From contig NZ_BPFH01000005.1 in NCBI RefSeq assembly GCF_019655435.1, positions 248,001-312,000 of the forward strand: DNA of 64,000 nt, read 5' to 3'. The translations under genes were made by a program, and so were the position numbers. How positions within the stretch are numbered: position 1 is the stretch's first letter; each line of letters begins with the position of its first letter. The notes under the pieces are model-generated. The model did not search any database. It was given only the letters and a program-made list of their open reading frames with translations, and was not told the DNA's origin. Positions 18,822 to 29,187 of this stretch are shown one piece after another. The stretch is from Jannaschia pagri. Lineage in GTDB: Bacteria > Pseudomonadota > Alphaproteobacteria > Rhodobacterales > Rhodobacteraceae.

Positions 18822-20252
18822 CTATTGAATGATGACCTCCGGCCCCATGACCAGCGTCGGCAACCAGATCGAAATGGCCGGGATATAGGTCACCATGATC
18901 AAGAAGACGAAGAGCACGGCCAGGAACGGCGCTGCTGCCTTCACGACCTGCATCATCCCCATGCCCGCCACGCCAGAGGTCACGAAGAGGTTCAGGCCAA
19001 CCGGCGGCGTGATCATCCCGATTTCCATGTTTACAACCATGATGATGCCCAGGTGAATGGGATCGATCCCCAGTTCGATGGCAATGGGAAAGACCAATGG
19101 CGCCACGATCAGCAGCAGGCCCGAGGGCTCCATGAACTGCCCGCCGATCAGCAGGATGACGTTCACGGCGATCAAAAAGGTGATCGGTCCCAACCCCGTG
19201 CTCAGCATCACCTCGGCGATGTGCTGCGGGATCTGCTCATCGGTCAGGACGTGCTTCAGGATCAACGCGTTGGCGATGATGAACATCAGCGTCACGGTCA
19301 GCTTGCCTGCCTCCAGCAGCGTGCGGCGTGTATCTGGGTGCCAAAGGGCCGTGACCAGAACCCAAGGCGCGCTCAGCAGCGATTTGGGCGTGCCTTCGAC
19401 TGGACCAGACACGGCCGCCGACAGGCTCTGCGCCTCTTTGGGGGCCAGCGGACCAATGTCACGATAGATGAACATGGCCACGACGAAGGCATAGACCGAC
19501 GCCACAGCCGCAGCTTCGGTTGGGGTGAAAATCGCATTGGTCAGTCCGGGGACGCCGTAGATCCCGACCATGATGATGACAATCAGCATCAGGCCCCAAA
19601 AGGCGTCGCGGAACGACGCGCCGATCTCGCCCCAACCGGCAAACTCACCCTTTGGCATGTTGCGAATGCGGGCGAAGATATAAATCGTCACCATCAACAT
19701 CCCGCCAGCCATCAGACCTGGGATCACACCGGCCAGGAACATCCGCCCGACGGAGACATCCGTGGCCGAAGCATAGACCACCATCACAATGGACGGCGGG
19801 ATCAGGATGCCTAGCGTCCCCGCGTTGCAGATGACACCCGCGGCGAATTCCTTGGTGTAGCCCGCTTGGGTCATGGCCGCGATCACGATGGTGCCAATGG
19901 CCACCACGGTCGCCGGGGAGGACCCCGACAGGGCCGCGAACATCATACAGGCGAAAACGCCTGCGATGGCCAACCCACCGCGCAGGTGCCCGACGCACGC
20001 AATGGAGAACCGGATGATCCGCCGAGCCACCCCTCCGGTGGACATGAAGGACGAGGCCAGGATGAAGAACGGAATGGCCAGGAGCGTGTAGTGCCCCGCC
20101 ATGGCCTGGTAAAAGCTCTGGGCGATGGACGCCAAGGAGGTGTCCGAAAACGCCAGCAAAAAGAACATGGAGCTAAAGCCCAGAGCGACCGCAATCGGCA
20201 CCCCGATCAGCAACAGCCCCACGATCATCACGAACAGAAGAACGACTTCCAT
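18822..20252 (-). CDS. dctM: TRAP transporter large permease, DctM family
   Basis: A 476-residue inner-membrane protein that carries substrate across the membrane using the sodium gradient. It has 12 or more hydrophobic segments and the family stretches SGSSPATVVAIG and LGILIPPSIVMVVYA, repeated in the second half as IGMITPPVGLNLFV. It is about 40 residues longer than typical because of an extra segment near 285-320 in a cytoplasmic loop. It starts 3 bp after dctQ on the same strand and forms the operon dctP-dctQ-dctM. Confidence 0.94.
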   Translation of the reverse strand: MEVVLLFVMIVGLLLIGVPIAVALGFSSMFFLLAFSDTSLASIAQSFYQAMAGHYTLLAIPFFILASSFMSTGGVARRIIRFSIACVGHLRGGLAIAGVFACMMFAALSGSSPATVVAIGTIVIAAMTQAGYTKEFAAGVICNAGTLGILIPPSIVMVVYASATDVSVGRMFLAGVIPGLMAGGMLMVTIYIFARIRNMPKGEFAGWGEIGASFRDAFWGLMLIVIIMVGIYGVPGLTNAIFTPTEAAAVASVYAFVVAMFIYRDIGPLAPKEAQSLSAAVSGPVEGTPKSLLSAPWVLVTALWHPDTRRTLLEAGKLTVTLMFIIANALILKHVLTDEQIPQHIAEVMLSTGLGPITFLIAVNVILLIGGQFMEPSGLLLIVAPLVFPIAIELGIDPIHLGIIMVVNMEIGMITPPVGLNLFVTSGVAGMGMMQVVKAAAPFLAVLFVFLIMVTYIPAISIWLPTLVMGPEVIIQ

Positions 20253-20255
20253 GGC

Positions 20256-20963
20256 TCAGGCCTTTCCAGCGGCAGGGGCGGCATCAGCACGATGGGCCGC
20301 GGCGACCTCTTCCACGGCCTCTTCGGCCTCGTGGCTGACGATCAGGGATTTCCGGGTGCCGCGCAGCACCGCGACAAAGGCTTGGCTCACGCGAAACAGG
20401 ATCAGCGCGCAGCCGAACGGTAAGATCACATAGGGCACGACACGGGGCAGTTTTTCATATTCCTCGCCCTGGTTGATGAGCGGCTCCAACCACCCAAACA
20501 GCCAGCGCATTGGCGGCACTTGGTCGGTGACGAACCACGCCTGATCCCGGGTCTTTTCGAACCCCGTAGGAAACCAGGCGCCCGAGGTCCGATCCAAGGC
20601 CGCAAACGGCGCCCAATAGTCCCAAGCCCCCTTCAGCAGCAGGAACGCATAGGCGAAGGTCACGCAACAGGCGAGCACGGCACAGACTCGTTTGCCCCGC
20701 TGCGGCAGGGCGTTGGTGAGGGCATCAACGCCCAGATGGGCCGTCACCTTGAACCCGTAGCTGACGCCAAAGATCACCAACCAGGCGAAGAGGATCAAGA
20801 TGACCTCCAAAGACCAGATCAGCTGGTCGTTGAACACATACCGCAAGACCACCGCCACAAAGGTCAGCAGGGTCATCAACCCCAACAGCAGCGCGATGGC
20901 GGTTTCTTCCAGTGAATGGATGGCACGGCCCAGACGACCGGTCGGTTCATAGCGCTCGGCCAT
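20256..20963 (-). CDS. dctQ: TRAP transporter small permease, DctQ family
   Basis: A 235-residue membrane subunit with four predicted helices: about 20-42, 52-70, 93-110 and 178-198. The sequence EETAIALLLGLMTLLTF is the typical DctQ start. It forms the membrane complex with DctM. The loop between helices 3 and 4 is unusually long (about 60 residues) and the C-terminal tail is rich in alanine and glutamate. It is separated from dctP by 138 bp that contain a hairpin. Confidence 0.9.
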   Translation of the reverse strand: MAERYEPTGRLGRAIHSLEETAIALLLGLMTLLTFVAVVLRYVFNDQLIWSLEVILILFAWLVIFGVSYGFKVTAHLGVDALTNALPQRGKRVCAVLACCVTFAYAFLLLKGAWDYWAPFAALDRTSGAWFPTGFEKTRDQAWFVTDQVPPMRWLFGWLEPLINQGEEYEKLPRVVPYVILPFGCALILFRVSQAFVAVLRGTRKSLIVSHEAEEAVEEVAAAHRADAAPAAGKA

Positions 20964-21055
20964 GGCTCCCTCCCCCGAGGTTGATGCGGCGACTCAAGCA
21001 CGCGTCTGCCATGGCGGAACGGCCAGGCGGTCACGCGTGCGGGACGCATGTGGGT

Positions 21056-21081
21056 CTTCGGGGCCAAGGACGGCCCCGAAG
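21056..21081 (-). terminator. Hairpin between dctP and dctQ
   Basis: Inverted repeat CTTCGGGGCC / GGCCCCGAAG with a 6-nt loop, 20 bp after the dctP stop. It probably reduces read-through or protects the dctP mRNA so that the binding protein is made in excess over the membrane subunits. Confidence 0.6.
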
Positions 21082-21101
21082 GATGACAGCGGTCGCGAGT
21101 A

Positions 21102-22112
21102 TCAGTTGTTGTAGCTGACCGCGGCGTCGATGTTTTCCTGGCCGATGCTATCGGCGAACTGGGCCCAGACGGGCTTCATCGCTTCGACCCAAGCTTCGCG
21201 GGCCTCGGGCGTAAGCTGACGCACCACACCACCAGCGTCGATGATCGACTGTTTCGCGGCTTCGTTGACGGCGGTGGCCTCGGCGTTCCGGGTTTCGGTC
21301 ACTTCGGCCAGGATCGTCATGAACTGATCGCGGACATCGGCGTCGAGGCTGTCGAGCCAGTCGACCGAGGTCACGACCAGATAGTCGATGATCCCGTGGT
21401 TGGTCTCGGTCACGCCGTCCTGAACCTCAAAGAACTTTTGGCCGTAGATGTTGGACCAGGTGTTTTCTTGACCGTCCACAACACCCGTTTGCAGGGCGCC
21501 ATACACCTCAGAGAACGCCATGGGCTGGGGCGAGACGCCGATGGCCTCCATCTGCGCCACGATCACGTCGGACGGCTGCACGCGAAACTTGAGGCCCGAG
21601 GCATCGCCCGGCATCTCCAGCGCCACATTTGCCGACATTTGCTTCATGCCGTTGTGCCAAAAGCCAAGCCCCTGAAGGCCACGGCGCTGCATGCTGTCGA
21701 GCATGGCCTGACCGTCATCGGACAGTTGGAAGCGGTCGACCGCGTCGATATCCTGGAACACGAACGGCAGGTCGAACACCTGGAAGACCTTGGTGAAGGC
21801 TTCGAACTTCGACAGCGACGGCGCGGCCAATTGGACGTCACCCTGGAGCATCGCCTCCAGCACCTGGTCGTCATTATACAGCGTCGAGTTCGGGAAGACT
21901 TCGACACACATGGCGCCGTTCATCTCTTCGTTGACCCGGTCCTGCAACAGGCTTGCGGCGATCCCCTTGGGATGGCGGTCCGTATTGGTGACGTGGGCGA
22001 ACTTCACGACGATCTCACCATCGTCACAGGCAGCCAGGGCCGTTCCAGCGGTCAGCGTCACGGCGGGCACGGCCAGGGCAAGCGCCGTGGCTGCGGTTGT
22101 CAGTTTTTTCAT
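21102..22112 (-). CDS. dctP: TRAP transporter substrate-binding protein, DctP family
   Basis: A 336-residue periplasmic binding protein. The signal peptide ends in TALA-A around residue 27. The mature protein contains the family segments VVKFAHVTNTDRHPKG, GLKFRVQPSDV with the carboxylate-binding arginine, and VDGQENTWSNIY with the conserved asparagine. C4-dicarboxylates are the probable ligand, supported by the neighbouring DctB/DctD-type genes. The promoter region carries two inverted repeats at 22260-22311. Confidence 0.92.
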   Translation of the reverse strand: MKKLTTAATALALAVPAVTLTAGTALAACDDGEIVVKFAHVTNTDRHPKGIAASLLQDRVNEEMNGAMCVEVFPNSTLYNDDQVLEAMLQGDVQLAAPSLSKFEAFTKVFQVFDLPFVFQDIDAVDRFQLSDDGQAMLDSMQRRGLQGLGFWHNGMKQMSANVALEMPGDASGLKFRVQPSDVIVAQMEAIGVSPQPMAFSEVYGALQTGVVDGQENTWSNIYGQKFFEVQDGVTETNHGIIDYLVVTSVDWLDSLDADVRDQFMTILAEVTETRNAEATAVNEAAKQSIIDAGGVVRQLTPEAREAWVEAMKPVWAQFADSIGQENIDAAVSYNN

Positions 22113-22375: not shown

Positions 22376-22978
22376 TCACACCTTGCGAGGATGCAGCCAC
22401 AACTCGAACCGACAGACCCCGCCGCCTTGGGCACCGCAGACGACCTCCTGACAAACCGTCCGAGACGACACGAGGGCCTGGTAAAGCCGCGCGAAAACAG
22501 CCGTATGCCAATGGCACATTGGGGCGCCGTCGGCCTCTCCCCGGATCAAGGGGTTGTCGTGGATCTCGAACACCCAAGGGGTCACCACCCGAAAACTACC
22601 GGTGCCCGCGAACGTCCAGGCGTGTTTCGAAATCGCCCGCGACAACAACGCCGCCGATGCCCCCGGCGGCAAACATCGCAAAACACCCTGGGCCAACTTC
22701 GGAATCCGTCGTGCCAGGATGTAGTTCGCGGTGGCAATGCCCGCCTCCGTCCCGATTTGCGGCGCGACCTGGGGCAACTCCTGCCGGATGACCCGATGTA
22801 AGGACGCGGCCAGGGTTTCCGGGATCATCCGTGTACCGTCCGGCAAACGGTGGAGCGCGGCGCGGGCGAGGACCCTGTCGCGCGTTTCCCTGCCAACGAT
22901 GCGATCCAGAACCGGAACGGCCTGCAACACGGCGTTTGGTCCAATCAGCGCCCGGTCGGTGCGGACCGCGTTAGACAT
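22376..22978 (-). CDS. bchJ: Bacteriochlorophyll biosynthesis protein BchJ
   Basis: A 200-residue protein with the V4R (4-vinyl reductase) domain in its C-terminal two-thirds, for example [24 protein letters not shown] and EIHDNPL, with conserved cysteines near the end ([14 protein letters not shown]). BchJ takes part in 8-vinyl reduction or in delivering intermediates during bacteriochlorophyll synthesis. The ATG at 22978 overlaps the last codons of bchE by 8 bp, the bchE-bchJ coupling known from photosynthesis gene clusters. The usual next gene, bchG, is absent; dctP follows instead. The frame is open far upstream, but that part is antisense or shadow of bchE. Confidence 0.87.
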
Positions 22979-24614
22979 CCTCCGCGATCTCTGGGCGATC
23001 CCTGGTATCCTGCGCGGCCCCAGCCCGCCGTTCCAACGCGCGAGCCTTGGTTTGCGCCCGCACCGCATCGCGCCGTTCTGCCGCTCGGGCTGCGCGGTCG
23101 GCCGCCGCCTCCCAGTCGGCGGTCTGCGCCTCGGCGAGTTGGCGGGTTTCATCGAACTGAAAGTCCACCGATGCCTTGGTTTGCGGCCCCCAATATCCGG
23201 CCTTTCCAAGGTCATAGAACGTGCGCTGAAACCCTGCCTTGAGGAAAGCATAGAGGCAGCCCAGCAAATACCGCCGCCGAAACCCCGTTCCCCGCCAAGG
23301 GTAGTGGAACAGCGCCTTGCGGCCATAGAACCGACGGTAGTTGTTCATCACGCCGTCGAGCAGTTCGCCCCGCTCCATCGCGGCAGGCTTCATGATCGGC
23401 GTGACGAAGTTGTATTTGCTGAAATCGAAAACCTCGACCTGGTCCTTGAGGTCTTGGAACAGCGGGGTGAACGGCCAGGGCGTATACATGGACCAGTTGG
23501 CCAGATCGGGCTGCCAGTCCCAGGCCATGCGGTAGGTTTCTTCCAGCGTTTCGGGCGTTTCATTGTCCAAACCGACGATGAACTGCGCCTCCACCAGAAT
23601 ATCGGCATCACGCAACAGGCGGATCGCCTCTTTGTTTTCCTCGACCTTGGTTTCCTTGTTGAACTGGTCCAGCTTCATCTGGGCGGCCGCCTCGGTCCCG
23701 AGCGACACATGGACCAAACCGGCCTTTCGATAAAACGACAGCAGGTCTCGGTCGCGGTAGATGTCTGTGACCCGGGTGTTGATCCCCCATTTGACCCGTC
23801 GCGGAAGGTCTCGGTCGATTAACTCCTGGCAGAAGGCCACGAACTTCTTCTTGTTTATGGTGGGTTCCTCGTCCGCCAGGATGAAGAAGCCGACACCGTG
23901 GTCGTTCACCAGGGCCTCAATCTCATCCACAACGTCCTTTGGGTCGCGTACGCGGTAGTCGCGCCAGAACTTCCATTGGCTGCAAAACGAACAGGTGAAC
24001 GGGCAGCCCCGCGCGAGGTTCGGGATTGCAACGCGCGTGCCCAGGGGAATGTAGATATACTTGGCCCAGTCCAGCACTGACCAATCCGGCTTGATTTTAG
24101 AGAGGTCCTTGACCGTCGAGGCCGCTTGTGTCGCCACGATCTGATCACCATCCCAAAAGGCCAAGCCATGGATCTTGCGCCGATCTTGGGGCCAGCGTCC
24201 GTCCCGAATGGCCAGCATGAGCGCGGTGCAAATCTCTTCACCCTCGCCCCGCACGATGACATCGACCCAAGGCGCCTCGCTCAGCACTTGCTTATACATG
24301 AACGTGGCATGGACCCCGCCCAGGACACGGACGGCATTGGGCACGACCCGCTGGGCGACCTGCAACACGTCTTCGGCCCGGTAAATTGACGGCGTGATGG
24401 CTGTGACCCCCACGACGTCGGGCGCAATCTCGGCCATACGTTGGGCGAGATCTTCGTCCGAGATGTTGTCCGTCATCGCATCAATGAAGTGGATCTCGTC
24501 GAAGCCGTTTTGGCGGAGGTGCCCGCTCAGATAGGCAACCCAGGCCGGTGGCCACGTACCGGCAATCTCCGCCCCTCCAGACCTATAGTTGGGATGCACG
24601 AACAGGATGCGCAT
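22971..24614 (-). CDS. bchE: Mg-protoporphyrin IX monomethyl ester anaerobic oxidative cyclase
   Basis: A 547-residue cobalamin-dependent radical-SAM enzyme that makes the isocyclic ring of bacteriochlorophyll without O2. Residues 1-150 form the B12-binding-type domain ([19 protein letters not shown]). Cys204, Cys208 and Cys211 in CPFTCSFC are the 4Fe-4S ligands. The last 70 residues are a charged, helical extension rich in Ala, Arg and Glu. The ATG at 24614 follows GGAGG and matches the family start; an in-frame ATG at 24641 is rejected. The promoter has overlapping PpsR/CrtJ-like and FNR-like boxes, which fits a gene expressed when oxygen is low. Confidence 0.96.
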
Positions 24615-24657
24615 GGGGACCTCCGCATAAGTGTCCCGCATTCCTTACGACTTTGTA

Positions 24658-24675
24658 TGTCTACTTTTATTGACA
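24658..24675. promoter_or_regulatory. PpsR/CrtJ-type operator of bchE
   Basis: TGTCTACTTTTATTGACA is an exact TGTC-N10-GACA palindrome, the consensus of the aerobic repressor PpsR/CrtJ of photosynthesis genes. It lies 44 bp upstream of the bchE start codon. No second TGT-N12-ACA box at the usual spacing was found. Confidence 0.75.
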
Positions 24676-24683
24676 CACATCAA
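24670..24683. promoter_or_regulatory. FnrL-type box of bchE
   Basis: TTGACACACATCAA matches the FNR consensus TTGAT-N4-ATCAA at 9 of 10 fixed positions. It overlaps the right arm of the PpsR-type box by 6 bp (24670-24675), so the two regulators should compete. FNR-type activation of bchE is known in Rhodobacter. Confidence 0.72.
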
Positions 24684-25049
24684 TGTCACGATCGGTCGGC
24701 GGAGCAGCGTAGCGACGTTCCTAGGCTGTCCATTTACTGTGGCGGCAGATCTCCGAGCAGACGGGCCAACGCCTTGTGCGACCACTGACCGGCGCCTCTG
24801 TCGCCGCTAGGGCGTCGGTCGTCCTCCATTGGAAAGGACGGGGCGGATGACTTAGCAAAGGAGGATACTGATTTCGATAAAGCCTGATCCGAGGTCACAA
24901 GGAAGGCGGCATCCTGAGATCATTGCAACCCCAGGGTCGGGCGCGGGACCGACATAGCGACGCTGCACAAAACTCTGATGAGACGCCTACACTTTCCTTA
25001 GCCGATCTCTTCTTAACAGCCTCCCGGGCCCGCGCCAGACATCCCGTGC
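24684..25049. other. Gene-free stretch between dctD and bchE
   Basis: No supported gene on either strand, only the distal part of the bchE promoter region and the 3' end of the dctD transcript. No strong terminator hairpin is seen after the dctD stop at 25050. Confidence 0.4.
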
Positions 25050-26270
25050 TCAAGAACTCCGGTAATCCTCGGCCCTCAAGCCGTGGCGTGTCAGCTTGTC
25101 GTAAAAGGTCTTGCGCGGGAGATCCAAATCTCGCGCAGCCGCCGTAGCGGCGCCGTGGTGCCGCGTCAGGGTCTCAACCAGAATGGCACGCTCCACCGCG
25201 CGCATGCGGTCGGCCAGGCCAGCGGTGGCACGCGGCACCTCCTGCTCGATCCCCATGGCGTAGCGCATGGCATGGTTCATCAGGGAGCGCGCGTTCCCCG
25301 GCCAATCCCGCGCCATCAGCCGGGCCTGCACATCTGGCGGGACATCCGGCAGGGGCAAATCCGCCTGTTCACAGGCCTGCGCGAGGTAGTGTCGGAAGAG
25401 AACGGGAATATCGCTCGGCCGTTCCTTGAGCGATGGGATCCGCACGCGCAGCGCCTCCAACCGATAATAGAGATCGACGTCCAGCGACGACAGCAGCGCA
25501 TCGGGCGGACCATGGGTTGCCGCCAGCAGACGCGCCGCCTCTGGCCCGTCGGGAACCTCGGCCAGCGCATATTGTAAGTCGCGGGGCAGCGCTTCGATCT
25601 TGTCGAGGAAGAGGCTGCCTCCCTGGGCACGGGCCAAGGCTTGGGCCAGGCTCGCCTCGTCCAAGGCCGGGGCCGCGCGTTTGACAAAGGGCCCCGCGCT
25701 GCGGGGCGACAACAGATGCACCACCTCTGCCACTTTAGAGGTCCCCGTCCCTGGTTCTCCGTGGATGAGGACGGCACCACCGCCACGGGCCACCATCCGG
25801 ACCGTATCGCGTAAGGCGCCCGCCTCGGGCGAGACCCCGAACAACAGGCGCGCCGCCGCATCCCCAGCTTCCAAAGCGCCCCGCGCCTGCCGCGCGGCCA
25901 GGGTCGCCACGCGCAAGTGCAAGGCTCGGCGCAACACCTCGACAAGTTCCGTCGGGTCGCAGGGCTTTTCTAGAAAGGCAAACGCCCCCTCGCTGATGCC
26001 GCGCACCGCCGAGGGCACGTCCCCTTCGCCGGTCAAAAGGATCACAGGCAGATCCGCGTCCACACCGCGGGCATATTGCAAAAGGTGAAAACCGTCCCGT
26101 CCGGGCATCCGCACATCAGACAGGATCACCCCCGGCAGAGAGCGCGTGATCCGGTCCTTGGCGGCGACAAAGCTGCCCATGGCCGTGACCGACAAGTCGG
26201 CCAGTTCCAACGTCTGCTCCAACGCCTCGCGGACCGACGCATCGTCTTCCACCAAAAGGACCTCAGTCAT
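25050..26270 (-). CDS. DctD-like response regulator with degenerate AAA+ domain
   Basis: A 406-residue NtrC-family regulator. The receiver domain (1-120) is intact with the phosphate-accepting Asp52 (SDVRMPG), Thr80 and Lys102. In the AAA+ domain, Walker A reads GEPGTGTS (171-178), with Thr177 in place of the invariant lysine. Walker B reads SLFLDKIE, with Lys224 in place of the catalytic glutamate. The whole LFGHxxGAFTGA segment is missing. The Fis-type HTH at the C-terminus is normal (GAATAAARDLDLPRKTFYDKL). It should bind DNA and respond to phosphorylation but cannot hydrolyse ATP or engage sigma-54. Its ATG overlaps the dctB-like stop (ATGA). Confidence 0.85.
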   Translation of the reverse strand: MTEVLLVEDDASVREALEQTLELADLSVTAMGSFVAAKDRITRSLPGVILSDVRMPGRDGFHLLQYARGVDADLPVILLTGEGDVPSAVRGISEGAFAFLEKPCDPTELVEVLRRALHLRVATLAARQARGALEAGDAAARLLFGVSPEAGALRDTVRMVARGGGAVLIHGEPGTGTSKVAEVVHLLSPRSAGPFVKRAAPALDEASLAQALARAQGGSLFLDKIEALPRDLQYALAEVPDGPEAARLLAATHGPPDALLSSLDVDLYYRLEALRVRIPSLKERPSDIPVLFRHYLAQACEQADLPLPDVPPDVQARLMARDWPGNARSLMNHAMRYAMGIEQEVPRATAGLADRMRAVERAILVETLTRHHGAATAAARDLDLPRKTFYDKLTRHGLRAEDYRSS

Positions 26271-27940
26271 GCGGCCTCCTCCACCGGGGTGGCTGGCTGG
26301 AGCGTCACTGTAAACACAGCGCCGCCCCCGTCCACGTTCTCTCCGGTGATCCGCCCCCCAAACCCGGACACGATGCCGTAGCTAATCGATAGGCCCAACC
26401 CAAGACCTGCGCCCACCTCTTTGGTGGAATAGAACGGGTCGAAGATGTTGCCCGGGTCGTCCAAGCCAGAGCCGCTGTCCCGCACGCGCAAACCGGGCGG
26501 ATCCTGCGTGATGGCCACGGTGACCTCGCGACGGGGGCACCCATCGGTCGCGTCCACGGCATTCGACATGAGGTTCACCAAGACCTGGGTCAGACGCACC
26601 TCGCCCCCCAGAACCCAGACGGGCCCCTCGGGCAAGTCACAGGTCAGATCGACGCCAGCATCGCTACGCCGCGCCTCGGTTATATCCAGGGCCGAGGCAA
26701 CGACCGCCTGCAGATCCGTCGGCACCGCCGGTTCCGGCTCCGCCCGCGCAAAGGCGCGCAAGTTCTTGATGATGCGCCCCATGGTGCGGGCCAAATCACC
26801 AATACGCGTGAGATTGCGGGCGGCCGCTGTCGGATTGTCCCGCTCCAGGAAGGTCTCCGCGTTTGAGGCAAAGGACCGGATGGCCATGAGCGGCTGGTTC
26901 AACTCGTGGCTGATCCCTGCGGACATCTGCCCCAAGGCGGACAGCTTGGACACTTGAACCAGCTCCGCCTGCGCGCGGGTCAGCGCAGCCTCGGCCTCCC
27001 GCCTTTCCCGCACTTCGCCCTCCAGCCGCGCATTGGTCCGCTCTAACGCCGCCGTGCGCTCGGTCACGCGCGCCTCCAGCATCTGATTGGCCCGCGCCAG
27101 AACCCGGCGCCGTTCCGACAGAACCGCCAGCAGCGCGCCGATCACGAGCAGCAGCGCCCCAACCGCCACCGCGCGGGCAAAGGCCAGGGCGCGGGCAGGT
27201 CCCACATCCACAAGGATTTCAGCAGTCAACCCGATCACCGGCAAGGGCAGCGCCAGATGCACCGCCTCGCGCGGGACATAGGGTCCCGCATCCAGCTGCA
27301 AGATCTTGAGCCCGGCGATTGGTAAGGCCTGATCGACCCGCGGGGGGCTGCGCATTTCTTCTCGGTTCGACACCAACACCCGGCCAGAGGCGTCGGAGAA
27401 GTAGATCACCTGTGGCGCGCCCCGCCAGCTGCGCTCGATGGTGGGCAGTGACCGGCTGACCGCAACGGCGCCCAACACGCCCCCCTCCGGTCCGAAAACG
27501 GGCGTTGCATTCGTGAAGTTTCGTCCATCCGGCGATGCGCCGAAGCCCAACGCCCCATGTAGCGTTCGATCCAACCAGGGCGTTCCGGCAACTGACGGCA
27601 CCTGACCGGATGCCGAGGCGAGCACGCCGCCATCGGGGCGCACCAGCAGCACGTCGGCAGCCCCCGCGCGATCTGCCGTCGCGCGCAACAGGGCCGAGGC
27701 CCGCTCCGCCCCCTGCCCATCGATCAACAACCGCTCCAGGCGTGGATCATCGGACAGATGGACCGCCAAATCCCGCGCCCGTTGCAATTCCAACACCAAA
27801 CGGTCAGCCGCCAAGCTGAGGTCCGATTGCCCCTTGGCCACCGCAGCCTCTAGCGCGTCCGTGAGCGTCGCCCACCAAACACCCCCGGCCACCGCCGAAG
27901 CCGCCACCAGATACGCACAGAAAATGACCAACCGTCCCAT
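26267..27940 (-). CDS. DctB-like sensor histidine kinase
   Basis: A 557-residue membrane sensor. The start at 27940 gives one N-terminal helix (about 5-25), then a periplasmic Cache-type domain (about 25-265), a second helix (about 270-292) and a coiled-coil linker. The kinase core has ALGQMSAGISHELNQPL (phosphorylated His), NLMSNAVDA (N box), RDSGSG (G1) and GLGLGLSISYGI (G2). The domain order is that of DctB, the C4-dicarboxylate sensor. It overlaps its regulator gene by four bases. Its signal ligand is inferred from the TRAP operon on the same strand. It is divergent from the P450 gene across 83 bp. Confidence 0.87.
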   Translation of the reverse strand: MGRLVIFCAYLVAASAVAGGVWWATLTDALEAAVAKGQSDLSLAADRLVLELQRARDLAVHLSDDPRLERLLIDGQGAERASALLRATADRAGAADVLLVRPDGGVLASASGQVPSVAGTPWLDRTLHGALGFGASPDGRNFTNATPVFGPEGGVLGAVAVSRSLPTIERSWRGAPQVIYFSDASGRVLVSNREEMRSPPRVDQALPIAGLKILQLDAGPYVPREAVHLALPLPVIGLTAEILVDVGPARALAFARAVAVGALLLVIGALLAVLSERRRVLARANQMLEARVTERTAALERTNARLEGEVRERREAEAALTRAQAELVQVSKLSALGQMSAGISHELNQPLMAIRSFASNAETFLERDNPTAAARNLTRIGDLARTMGRIIKNLRAFARAEPEPAVPTDLQAVVASALDITEARRSDAGVDLTCDLPEGPVWVLGGEVRLTQVLVNLMSNAVDATDGCPRREVTVAITQDPPGLRVRDSGSGLDDPGNIFDPFYSTKEVGAGLGLGLSISYGIVSGFGGRITGENVDGGGAVFTVTLQPATPVEEAA

Positions 27941-28023
27941 GGTGCCGCAGGATAGGACCACCCAGCGCGGGGGGAAAGGCCAGAGGCTTGACCCCCGATC
28001 CACCGCGCGGCACCCCGGCGGGT

Positions 28024-29187
28024 ATGGAGTGGCTGTCGCAATCCCCAACGGACCCCGCGTTCGTTCAGGACCCTTATCCGTTCTATGACCGCCTGCGCGC
28101 CCTCGGCCCCTTGGTGGGCTGGACAGAGTATGGCCTGCCCATGGCTGCCGGCTACGATGTGGTGAACGCCGTGCTGCGCGACCGACGCTTTGGGCGCGAA
28201 AATCCGTCGCCGCCGCCTCGCCCCGCCCATCAGGCCGGTTTCTGGGCCGTTGAAGACCACTCCATGCTGGAGCTTGAGCCACCGCGCCACACCCGACTGC
28301 GCGCCAGCGTCCTGCGCGCGTTCACGTCGCGCCGGATTGCTGAGATGGAGGAGCAGATCACAGCGCTCGCGCAGGATCTGGTGGCGGCCTTTCCATCGGA
28401 CCGTTCCTTTGATCTGCTCGACACCTTTGCCCGCCCCCTGCCCGTGCGGATCATCGCGCGCCTGCTTGGTGTGCCCGAAAGCGACGCGCCCCGACTTTTG
28501 GCTTGGTCCAACGCCATGGTCGGTATGTACCAAGCGGGTCGGACGGAGGCCCAGGAGCGCGCCGCCGCCAAGGCCGCGACCGCGTTCAGCGCCTACTTAG
28601 CGGATATCTTTCGCGCCCCCGTCCCAGGCAGCCTCATCGCCGACCTGCTGGACCTTGCGGGCCAGGATCGACTGTCGGCGCCGGAAGTGACAGCCACCTG
28701 CATTCTGCTGCTGAACGCGGGGCATGAGGCCACGGTCCACACGCTAGGCAATGGGGTCGCCGGATTGCTGTCTGCGGGCCTTTGGCATGCCCCCATGACG
28801 CCCGCCCTCACCGAAGAGGTCTTGCGCCACGATCCTCCGCTGCACCTCTTCCTGCGCTACGCGACGGAGGATCTGGACCTCCACGGCCATTCCTTCCGCC
28901 GTGGGGAGCAGATCGGCCTTCTGCTGGCGGGTGCGAACCGGGATCCCGCAGCCTTTGCGATGCCGGAGAAATTGCTCCCCGATAGGTTCCCGGCGGCACC
29001 CACCCCGCTCAGTTTTGGGGCCGGGCGTCATTTCTGTCTTGGGGCGCCCCTGGCCCGGTCCGAGATCCAAATCGGCTTGGCGGTTCTGTCAGAGACGTGT
29101 CCAACCCTGCGCCTAACCAACCGCCCGACCTTTGCCGACATTTACCATTTCCACGGCCTATCGGCGTTAAAGGTCACGCTGACCTGA
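28024..29187 (+). CDS. Cytochrome P450
   Basis: A 387-residue soluble class I cytochrome P450. The I-helix oxygen-activation motif is NAGHEAT, the K-helix ExxR is EEVLR, and the heme loop is SFGAGRHFCLGAPLAR with the thiolate cysteine. All are intact, so it should be active. It would need a ferredoxin and reductase from elsewhere; neither is adjacent. The substrate is unknown. The start is ambiguous: ATG at 28024 has a weak ribosome-binding site and a TTG at 27988 is also in frame. Confidence 0.9.
   Translation: MEWLSQSPTDPAFVQDPYPFYDRLRALGPLVGWTEYGLPMAAGYDVVNAVLRDRRFGRENPSPPPRPAHQAGFWAVEDHSMLELEPPRHTRLRASVLRAFTSRRIAEMEEQITALAQDLVAAFPSDRSFDLLDTFARPLPVRIIARLLGVPESDAPRLLAWSNAMVGMYQAGRTEAQERAAAKAATAFSAYLADIFRAPVPGSLIADLLDLAGQDRLSAPEVTATCILLLNAGHEATVHTLGNGVAGLLSAGLWHAPMTPALTEEVLRHDPPLHLFLRYATEDLDLHGHSFRRGEQIGLLLAGANRDPAAFAMPEKLLPDRFPAAPTPLSFGAGRHFCLGAPLARSEIQIGLAVLSETCPTLRLTNRPTFADIYHFHGLSALKVTLT

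Follow-up and report, generated by a model that had tools for sequence, protein, structure and literature searches.

Overlapping FNR-type and PpsR-type boxes upstream of bchE in Jannaschia pagri and their occurrence in related genera

The bchE locus and its upstream boxes

The window, which is the whole 64,000-nucleotide stretch of Jannaschia pagri DNA that was analysed, contained the bchE gene and a bchJ-like frame (Table 1). Both frames were open, and they likely form a bchEJ operon. TRAP transporter genes were located downstream of bchEJ, on the minus strand at 18822-22112. Genes for a response regulator and a histidine kinase were located upstream of bchE, on the minus strand at 25050-28282; their best similarities were to PgtA and PgtB, and these fell below the cut-offs.

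The promoter region, read on the bchE strand, was TTGATGTGTGTCAATAAAAGTAGACATACAAAGTCGTAAGGAATGCGGGACACTTATGCGGAGGTCCCC-ATG. A pattern scan of the window confirmed what the first-pass annotation had described, namely a TGTC-N10-GACA palindrome and an FNR-like box that have 6 bp in common and lie 44 to 69 bp before the bchE ATG. The FNR box had 1 mismatch relative to a symmetric, TTGAT-N4-ATCAA-like consensus. The same annotation had stated that there was no second PpsR box at 8-bp spacing, and here it needed correction, as a degenerate PpsR-like box (box 2) was found exactly 8 bp from the palindrome (box 1). Box 2 was of the form CGT-N12-ACA: it had 1 mismatch to TGT-N12-ACA and 2 mismatches to TGTC-N10-GACA, and its right arm, GACA, was intact. 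An inverted repeat, TGACA-N8-TGTCA, was also seen at 24671-24688, partly over the FNR box, and may be due to chance.

TGTC-N10-GACA and TTGA-N6-TCAA each had one exact match in the window. The numbers expected per shuffled window were 0.72 and 0.54, respectively, which placed each motif near its chance frequency, and the question could not be decided from the window alone. In the whole genome, there were 81 places for the PpsR pattern and 45 for the FNR pattern, whereas the reversed patterns gave 26 and 22. The composite TTGA-N4-TGTCAA-N9-ACA was present in 33 of 62 bchE upstream regions of 400 bp from the family and in none of 124,000 single-base shuffles. The joint placement of the overlapping boxes is therefore far above chance.

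Table 1. Features of the bchE locus, in positions of the window
Feature	Position	Strand	Remarks
bchE	22971..24614	-	ATG at 24614; product is BchE (TIGR02026, 818.7 bits)
bchJ-like frame	22376..22972	-	directly downstream of bchE; TIGR02019, 165.8 bits; exact start not set
FNR/FnrL-type box (predicted)	24670..24683	-	exact TTGA-N6-TCAA; towards bchE TTGATGTGTGTCAA, -69 to -56 from the ATG; forward strand TTGACACACATCAA
PpsR/CrtJ box 1 (predicted)	24658..24675	-	exact TGTC-N10-GACA; towards bchE TGTCAATAAAAGTAGACA, -61 to -44 from the ATG
Shared half-site TGTCAA	24670..24675	-	6 bp common to the FNR box and PpsR box 1
Degenerate PpsR box 2, CGTAAGGAATGCGGGACA	24632..24649	-	-35 to -18 from the ATG; separated from box 1 by 8 bp
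Predicted -10 region TAAGGA (weak)	24642..24647	-	based on conserved columns of the family alignment; A but not T present in the window
Predicted transcription start	24635..24635	-	offset 48, counted from the first base of the FNR box; G in the window, A in 85% of the family
Shine-Dalgarno-like GGAGG	24620..24624	-	from the sequence

Occurrence of the boxes in related genomes

To compare bchE promoters across the family, we aligned 400 bp upstream of bchE from 62 genera with a readable start, three of which (G216, G237, and G242) had a broken frame. The alignment was anchored on the FNR box nearest to -67; choosing the best match instead gave a second box, at -101, in one genus (G256). The FNR box TTGA-N6-TCAA was exact in 57 of 62 genera and had at most 1 mismatch in 61 (all but G194), and it was located 62 to 103 bp before the start codon. 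Box 1, defined as TGT-N12-ACA with a 6-bp overlap with the FNR box, was exact in 36 of these 61 genera and had the TGTC-N10-GACA form in 34. The first-pass annotation had stated beforehand that absence of the overlap from relatives would count against its proposal; an exact overlap in 36 of 61 bchE-bearing genera speaks against such an absence. Box 2 was exact in 37 of 61 genera and lay 7 bp further downstream in 35. Both PpsR boxes were exact in 14 genera and at least one of them was exact in 59; in the two genera that remained, box 1 began with CGTCAA.

The positions of the PpsR boxes relative to the FNR box were highly uniform. In a version of the alignment based on best-match FNR boxes, TGT-N12-ACA sequences (57 genera) started at offset +8 in 32 genera and at +33 in 33, and ten other offsets, including +32 and +34, occurred once each. 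In the 35 genera in which both PpsR boxes had at most 1 mismatch, the spacing between them was 7 bp in 30, 8 bp in 4 (including the window), and 6 bp in 1.

BchE-like proteins (HPPH and similar) in nine genera were considered as possible sharers of the promoter and were ruled out: in the best-match version, none of the nine, which have another N-terminus, had an exact FNR box or a box 1 upstream. The set (G284, G257, G151, G010, G008, G283, G001, G121, and G096) mostly had an HPPH-like N-terminus; the eight proteins above the cut-off scored 492 to 530 bits, and the one in G096 was a weak fragment.

A named set of 82 rows was also compiled. It consisted of 79 of 80 loci (L086, which lacked a start, was dropped), the window, and two congeneric genomes, with L201 repeating L020. 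All 82 rows had an FNR box with at most 1 mismatch (76 exact); box 1 was exact in 35, box 2 in 54, both in 17, and either in 72. The 10 rows with neither exact PpsR box were two with CGTCAA replacing TGTCAA and the eight members of a sphingomonad/erythrobacter clade (L054, L062, L063, L065, L067, L071, L076, and L085). In a quick tree with a midpoint root, the BchE proteins of this clade nested among those of Rhodobacterales. An FNR-like box was kept in the clade, ending in CGCAA in six of the eight, and no TGT-N12-ACA was found within 300 bp in the eight promoters.

Among the 20 genomes of the window's genus that were searched, three had a true BchE, and all three had a perfect composite. Box 2 appeared, by eye, to be eroded or missing in all three, leaving box 1 as the only perfect PpsR box. 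A fourth congeneric protein above the cut-off (G306, 485 bits) scored like the BchE-like group that was set apart. The congeneric BchE proteins did not form one clade: that of G312 was placed on a long branch, separate from the BchE of the window, and that of G304 was identical to the BchE of Jannaschia seohaensis. Five records labelled as other groups (L034, Parasphingopyxis; L035, Jiella; L033, Beijerinckiaceae; L040, Aquibium; and L089, Roseibium) had a BchE that was 79 to 87% identical to that of the window, and in all five, the family positions were occupied by the FNR box and by one or more exact PpsR boxes. It is possible that bchE was transferred together with its promoter in these cases or that two of the records, which are metagenome bins (L033 and L034), contain binning errors.

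A stricter composite, TTGAY-N3-TGTCAA-N8-GACA, was searched for in one genome from each of 295 genera of the family, with the reversed pattern as a control. The composite was found at 39 places in 37 of the 295 genomes, and the reversed pattern was found at none. At 32 of the 39 places (31 genomes), the composite stood at bchE; 26 of these were assigned by tblastn on 25 loci, and 6 were assigned by comparing coordinates by hand. One genome (G233) had two composites at bchE, one of which pointed away from the gene, and the full composite was present in genome G035. The seven composites away from bchE were located at bchC (two; G274 and G196), crtD/prenyl synthase (one; G029), hemA/M20 peptidase (one; G108), and three places for which no link to photosynthesis was found (G206, GyrI-like; G082 and G015, for which only open frames were considered). 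Other tetrapyrrole and carotenoid genes (bchC, crtD/prenyl synthase, and hemA; L100, L104, L113, and L117) may also make use of the FNR/PpsR composite. In G242 (L112 and L188), bchE was broken after about 83 residues, yet the composite remained perfect and box 2 exact.

Regulators and predicted promoter geometry

The J. pagri genome (3.9 Mb, 18 contigs) was searched for the corresponding regulators. A PpsR was encoded at C3:181183 (TIGR02040, 401 bits; cut-off, 275). Its residues 13 to 376 aligned to the R. sphaeroides structure 4hh2, the cysteine in ERLLLC was kept, and a cysteine was also present in the C-terminal helix-turn-helix region; these two cysteines would match Cys251 and Cys424 of R. 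sphaeroides. An FnrL was encoded at C2:296280 (NF045989, 376 bits; cut-off, 300). Its translation had N-terminal cysteines in a C-x2-C-x7-C-x2-C arrangement, as well as further ones, that may hold a putative iron-sulphur cluster. The gene for the oxygen-dependent cyclase AcsF (524 bits) was on contig 3 together with ppsR, away from bchE on contig 5.

A close known counterpart is the bchEJGP promoter of R. sphaeroides 2.4.1. FnrL was reported to bind TTGACatgcATCAA upstream of this operon (PMC2908626), and PpsR was listed at TGTCAACTGAAATGGACA of bchE with an expression change of -9.60 (PMC4344238). Substitution of G or C for the T at position -57 within the FnrL site was reported to cause a loss of about 90% of FnrL-driven reporter activity, and in the same paper, expression of nuoA, bchE, and hemA in an fnrL mutant was unchanged or went in the opposite direction (PMC4263372). 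According to another paper, FnrL represses bchE in R. sphaeroides and activates it in R. capsulatus, and that paper's table of direct FnrL targets in R. capsulatus does not contain bchE (PMC4634722). RNA data place R. capsulatus bchE among the FnrL-activated genes (PMC5643017); CrtJ peaks were reported upstream of it (PMC5362033), and the CrtJ motifs of bchEJGP were described as distant (PMC6199135).

One genome in our survey (G051) carried both published sites, TTGACatgcATCAA and TGTCAACTGAAATGGACA, at the family positions and without overlap, and because it had exactly these sites, it was taken as R. sphaeroides. As in the window, its FnrL box was 67 bp before the start codon, and both proteins are reported to bind and regulate the promoter (PMC2908626, PMC4263372, PMC4344238). 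Its PpsR box was located 33 bp downstream of the FnrL box start, as in the family. Unlike in the window, there was no box 1; the sequence CATCAATTTGCCCGCCAC stood in its place, and the two sites were separate. The overlap is thus not needed for dual control.

The family alignment also pointed to a promoter. Besides the PpsR boxes, the FNR-anchored column profile showed an A at offset 37 (92%), a T at offset 41 (80%), and an A at offset 48 (85%). Of the 24 genera in which box 2 was not exact, 21 kept A37 and 21 kept T41; a T at the equivalent place was seen in 1 of 10 PpsR motifs compared from a published R. sphaeroides table of 19. Because A37 and T41 persist without an exact box 2, they look like part of a -10 element rather than PpsR sequence. 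We suggest that they are the second and sixth bases of a -10 hexamer at offsets 36 to 41, which would place the transcription start at offset 48 and the centre of the FNR box at -41.5; the A at offset 48 also belongs to box 2. An activator box centred at about -41.5 from the transcription start is the class II geometry. Box 1 would then occupy about -40 to -23, in the -35 region, and box 2 would occupy about -15 to +3, over the -10 region and the start. This arrangement suggests that the 7-bp spacing of the boxes may follow from FnrL fixing the place of box 1 and the -10 element fixing that of box 2. A sigma-70 scan of window positions 24500-25100 found no promoter.

The predicted layout resembled several known systems in part. 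Like class II FNR-dependent promoters, it would have its activator box centred at -41.5 and would not need a good -35 element; unlike in those promoters, the downstream half of the activator box is also half of a repressor box. Tandem PpsR/CrtJ boxes are reported at R. capsulatus bchC with 8-bp spacing (PMC6199135) and at Rubrivivax gelatinosus crtI and pucB with 8-bp and 9-bp spacing (PMC4452267), whereas the rule at bchE in the family was 7 bp, with box 1 sharing DNA with the FNR box. The native crtI tandem, (TGa-N12-ACA)-N8-(cGT-N12-ACA), binds PpsR and is like the window in its 8-bp spacing and cGT arm, and a change from 8 to 9 bp was reported to alter redox dependence (PMC4452267). In Dinoroseobacter shibae, PpsR motifs likewise lie over the -35 and -10 elements of bchF, but the available portion of that paper mentions no shared FNR half-site (PMC10890935).

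The shared half-site and competing explanations

The first-pass annotation had proposed that PpsR and FnrL form a switch at bchE. Part of this proposal was strengthened, as the genome encodes PpsR (401 bits) and FnrL (376 bits), and both proteins are reported to act on R. sphaeroides bchE (PMC2908626, PMC4344238, PMC4263372). The other part, that FnrL and PpsR bind this promoter in J. pagri and do so exclusively, is what the box sequences and their geometry would predict.

We consider it likely that the bchE promoter of J. pagri is activated by FnrL in the class II manner and repressed by PpsR, with competition through the shared half-site. When oxygen is low, FnrL would bind its box at about -41.5 and act from there as a class II activator of the sigma-70 polymerase. 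PpsR would bind box 1, and perhaps also the degenerate box 2 over the -10 region and the start, and repress. TGTCAA serves both as the downstream half-site of the FnrL box and as the upstream arm of PpsR box 1, so that PpsR would displace not only the polymerase but also FnrL; this suggests that FnrL and PpsR compete directly for the promoter. Against this reading, the exact box 1 overlap was absent in 25 of 61 genera, the -10 sequence in the window was poor, and its start base was not the usual A. Also against it are the negative sigma-70 scan, the separate sites of R. sphaeroides, the lability of the overlap on the BchE tree, the distant placement of the congeneric G312 protein, and the reports on fnrL-mutant expression and FnrL repression of bchE in R. 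sphaeroides and on direct FnrL targets in R. capsulatus (PMC4263372, PMC4634722).

A broader proposal, which we put forward tentatively and at somewhat less than even chances, is that the sharing of the half-site is under selection and works as a device throughout the family. PpsR would serve as an anti-activator of FnrL at bchE, the class II geometry would dictate the unusual 7-bp spacing, and where PpsR answers to light instead of oxygen, light and oxygen signals would compete directly. Lineages would trade box 1 against box 2 and keep at least one of them. The shared TG went with the ACA arm (36 of 45 versus 5 of 16; Fisher P = 0.0012, kinship ignored), and the exact forms of boxes 1 and 2 were negatively associated (Fisher P = 3.7e-5, kinship ignored). 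Kinship-corrected tests on independent pairs were not significant for either association, with too few usable pairs.

The overlap may instead be a functionless by-product of geometry: FnrL needs to be at -41.5, PpsR has to cover the -35 region, the two half-sites (TCAA and TGTC) fit together by coincidence, so that an overlap would readily arise, and repression is by occlusion of the polymerase alone. We regard this as rather unlikely. Box 2 alone was exact in 23 of 61 genera, including R. sphaeroides (G051), in which PpsR control is reported, and changes of state on the BchE tree numbered at least 18 for box 1 and at least 8 for box 2, so the overlap is labile. However, the right arm of the FNR box was TGTCAA in 44 of 61 bchE promoters and in only 1 of the 28 R. 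sphaeroides FnrL sites listed in PMC2908626, a list that includes bchE, and in 1 of the 29 distinct sites given for R. capsulatus in PMC4634722; when both arms were counted, the numbers were 4 of 56 and 2 of 58. Box 1 also occurred at one single offset and was the only perfect PpsR box in the window's genus, which further argues against a by-product.

It is improbable that the FNR-type box is read mainly by another CRP/FNR protein of the Dnr, FixK, or CrpK type, such that the promoter would answer to nitric oxide or other signals and not to oxygen via FnrL. Further proteins of this type are encoded in the genome (L004, L006, and L007) and, by eye, were without the FnrL cysteine cluster; CrpK is reported to act at the same bchE site as FnrL in R. 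sphaeroides (PMC4263372), and the Dnr proteins of D. shibae are reported to act with FnrL on photosynthesis genes (PMC5398030). FnrL itself is encoded in J. pagri, however, and it activated the bchE promoter in R. sphaeroides reporter assays (PMC4263372). Reading by FnrL and reading by such a protein can both be true. Quite improbable is a decaying remnant, in which box 2 and the -10 element have eroded and bchE is little used since AcsF serves an aerobic lifestyle: the degenerate box 2, the weak -10 sequence, the presence of AcsF, and the broken bchE genes of relatives (G216, G237, and G242) would fit, but the bchE and bchJ-like frames were open, both main boxes were perfect, and the cGT arm at 8-bp spacing occurs in the natural Rubrivivax tandem that binds PpsR (PMC4452267).

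Competition between FnrL and PpsR remains our preferred reading. Dual control of bchE by the two proteins, through separate sites, is known from R. sphaeroides; here, an ordinary pair of regulators has its predicted sites in an unusual, widely conserved layout. In the literature that we searched, which included few subscription papers, we found no description of a half-site shared by FnrL and PpsR at bchE and no experiment on their binding competition there, and an older report may exist. The bchE gene is an oxygen-sensitive gateway to bacteriochlorophyll, and with the shared half-site in 36 of 61 genera and PpsR boxes that apparently substitute for each other, its promoter is a compact system in which competition between an activator and a repressor can be tested directly. 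Mutating one base of the TGTC/TCAA arm that the boxes share would affect both regulators simultaneously, and dozens of natural promoter variants are available for testing the competition. Upstream of bchE in G233 (L106; G233:C66:2415-2452), the FNR box was fully palindromic, TTGACATATGTCAA, and each of its arms was common to a flanking PpsR box.
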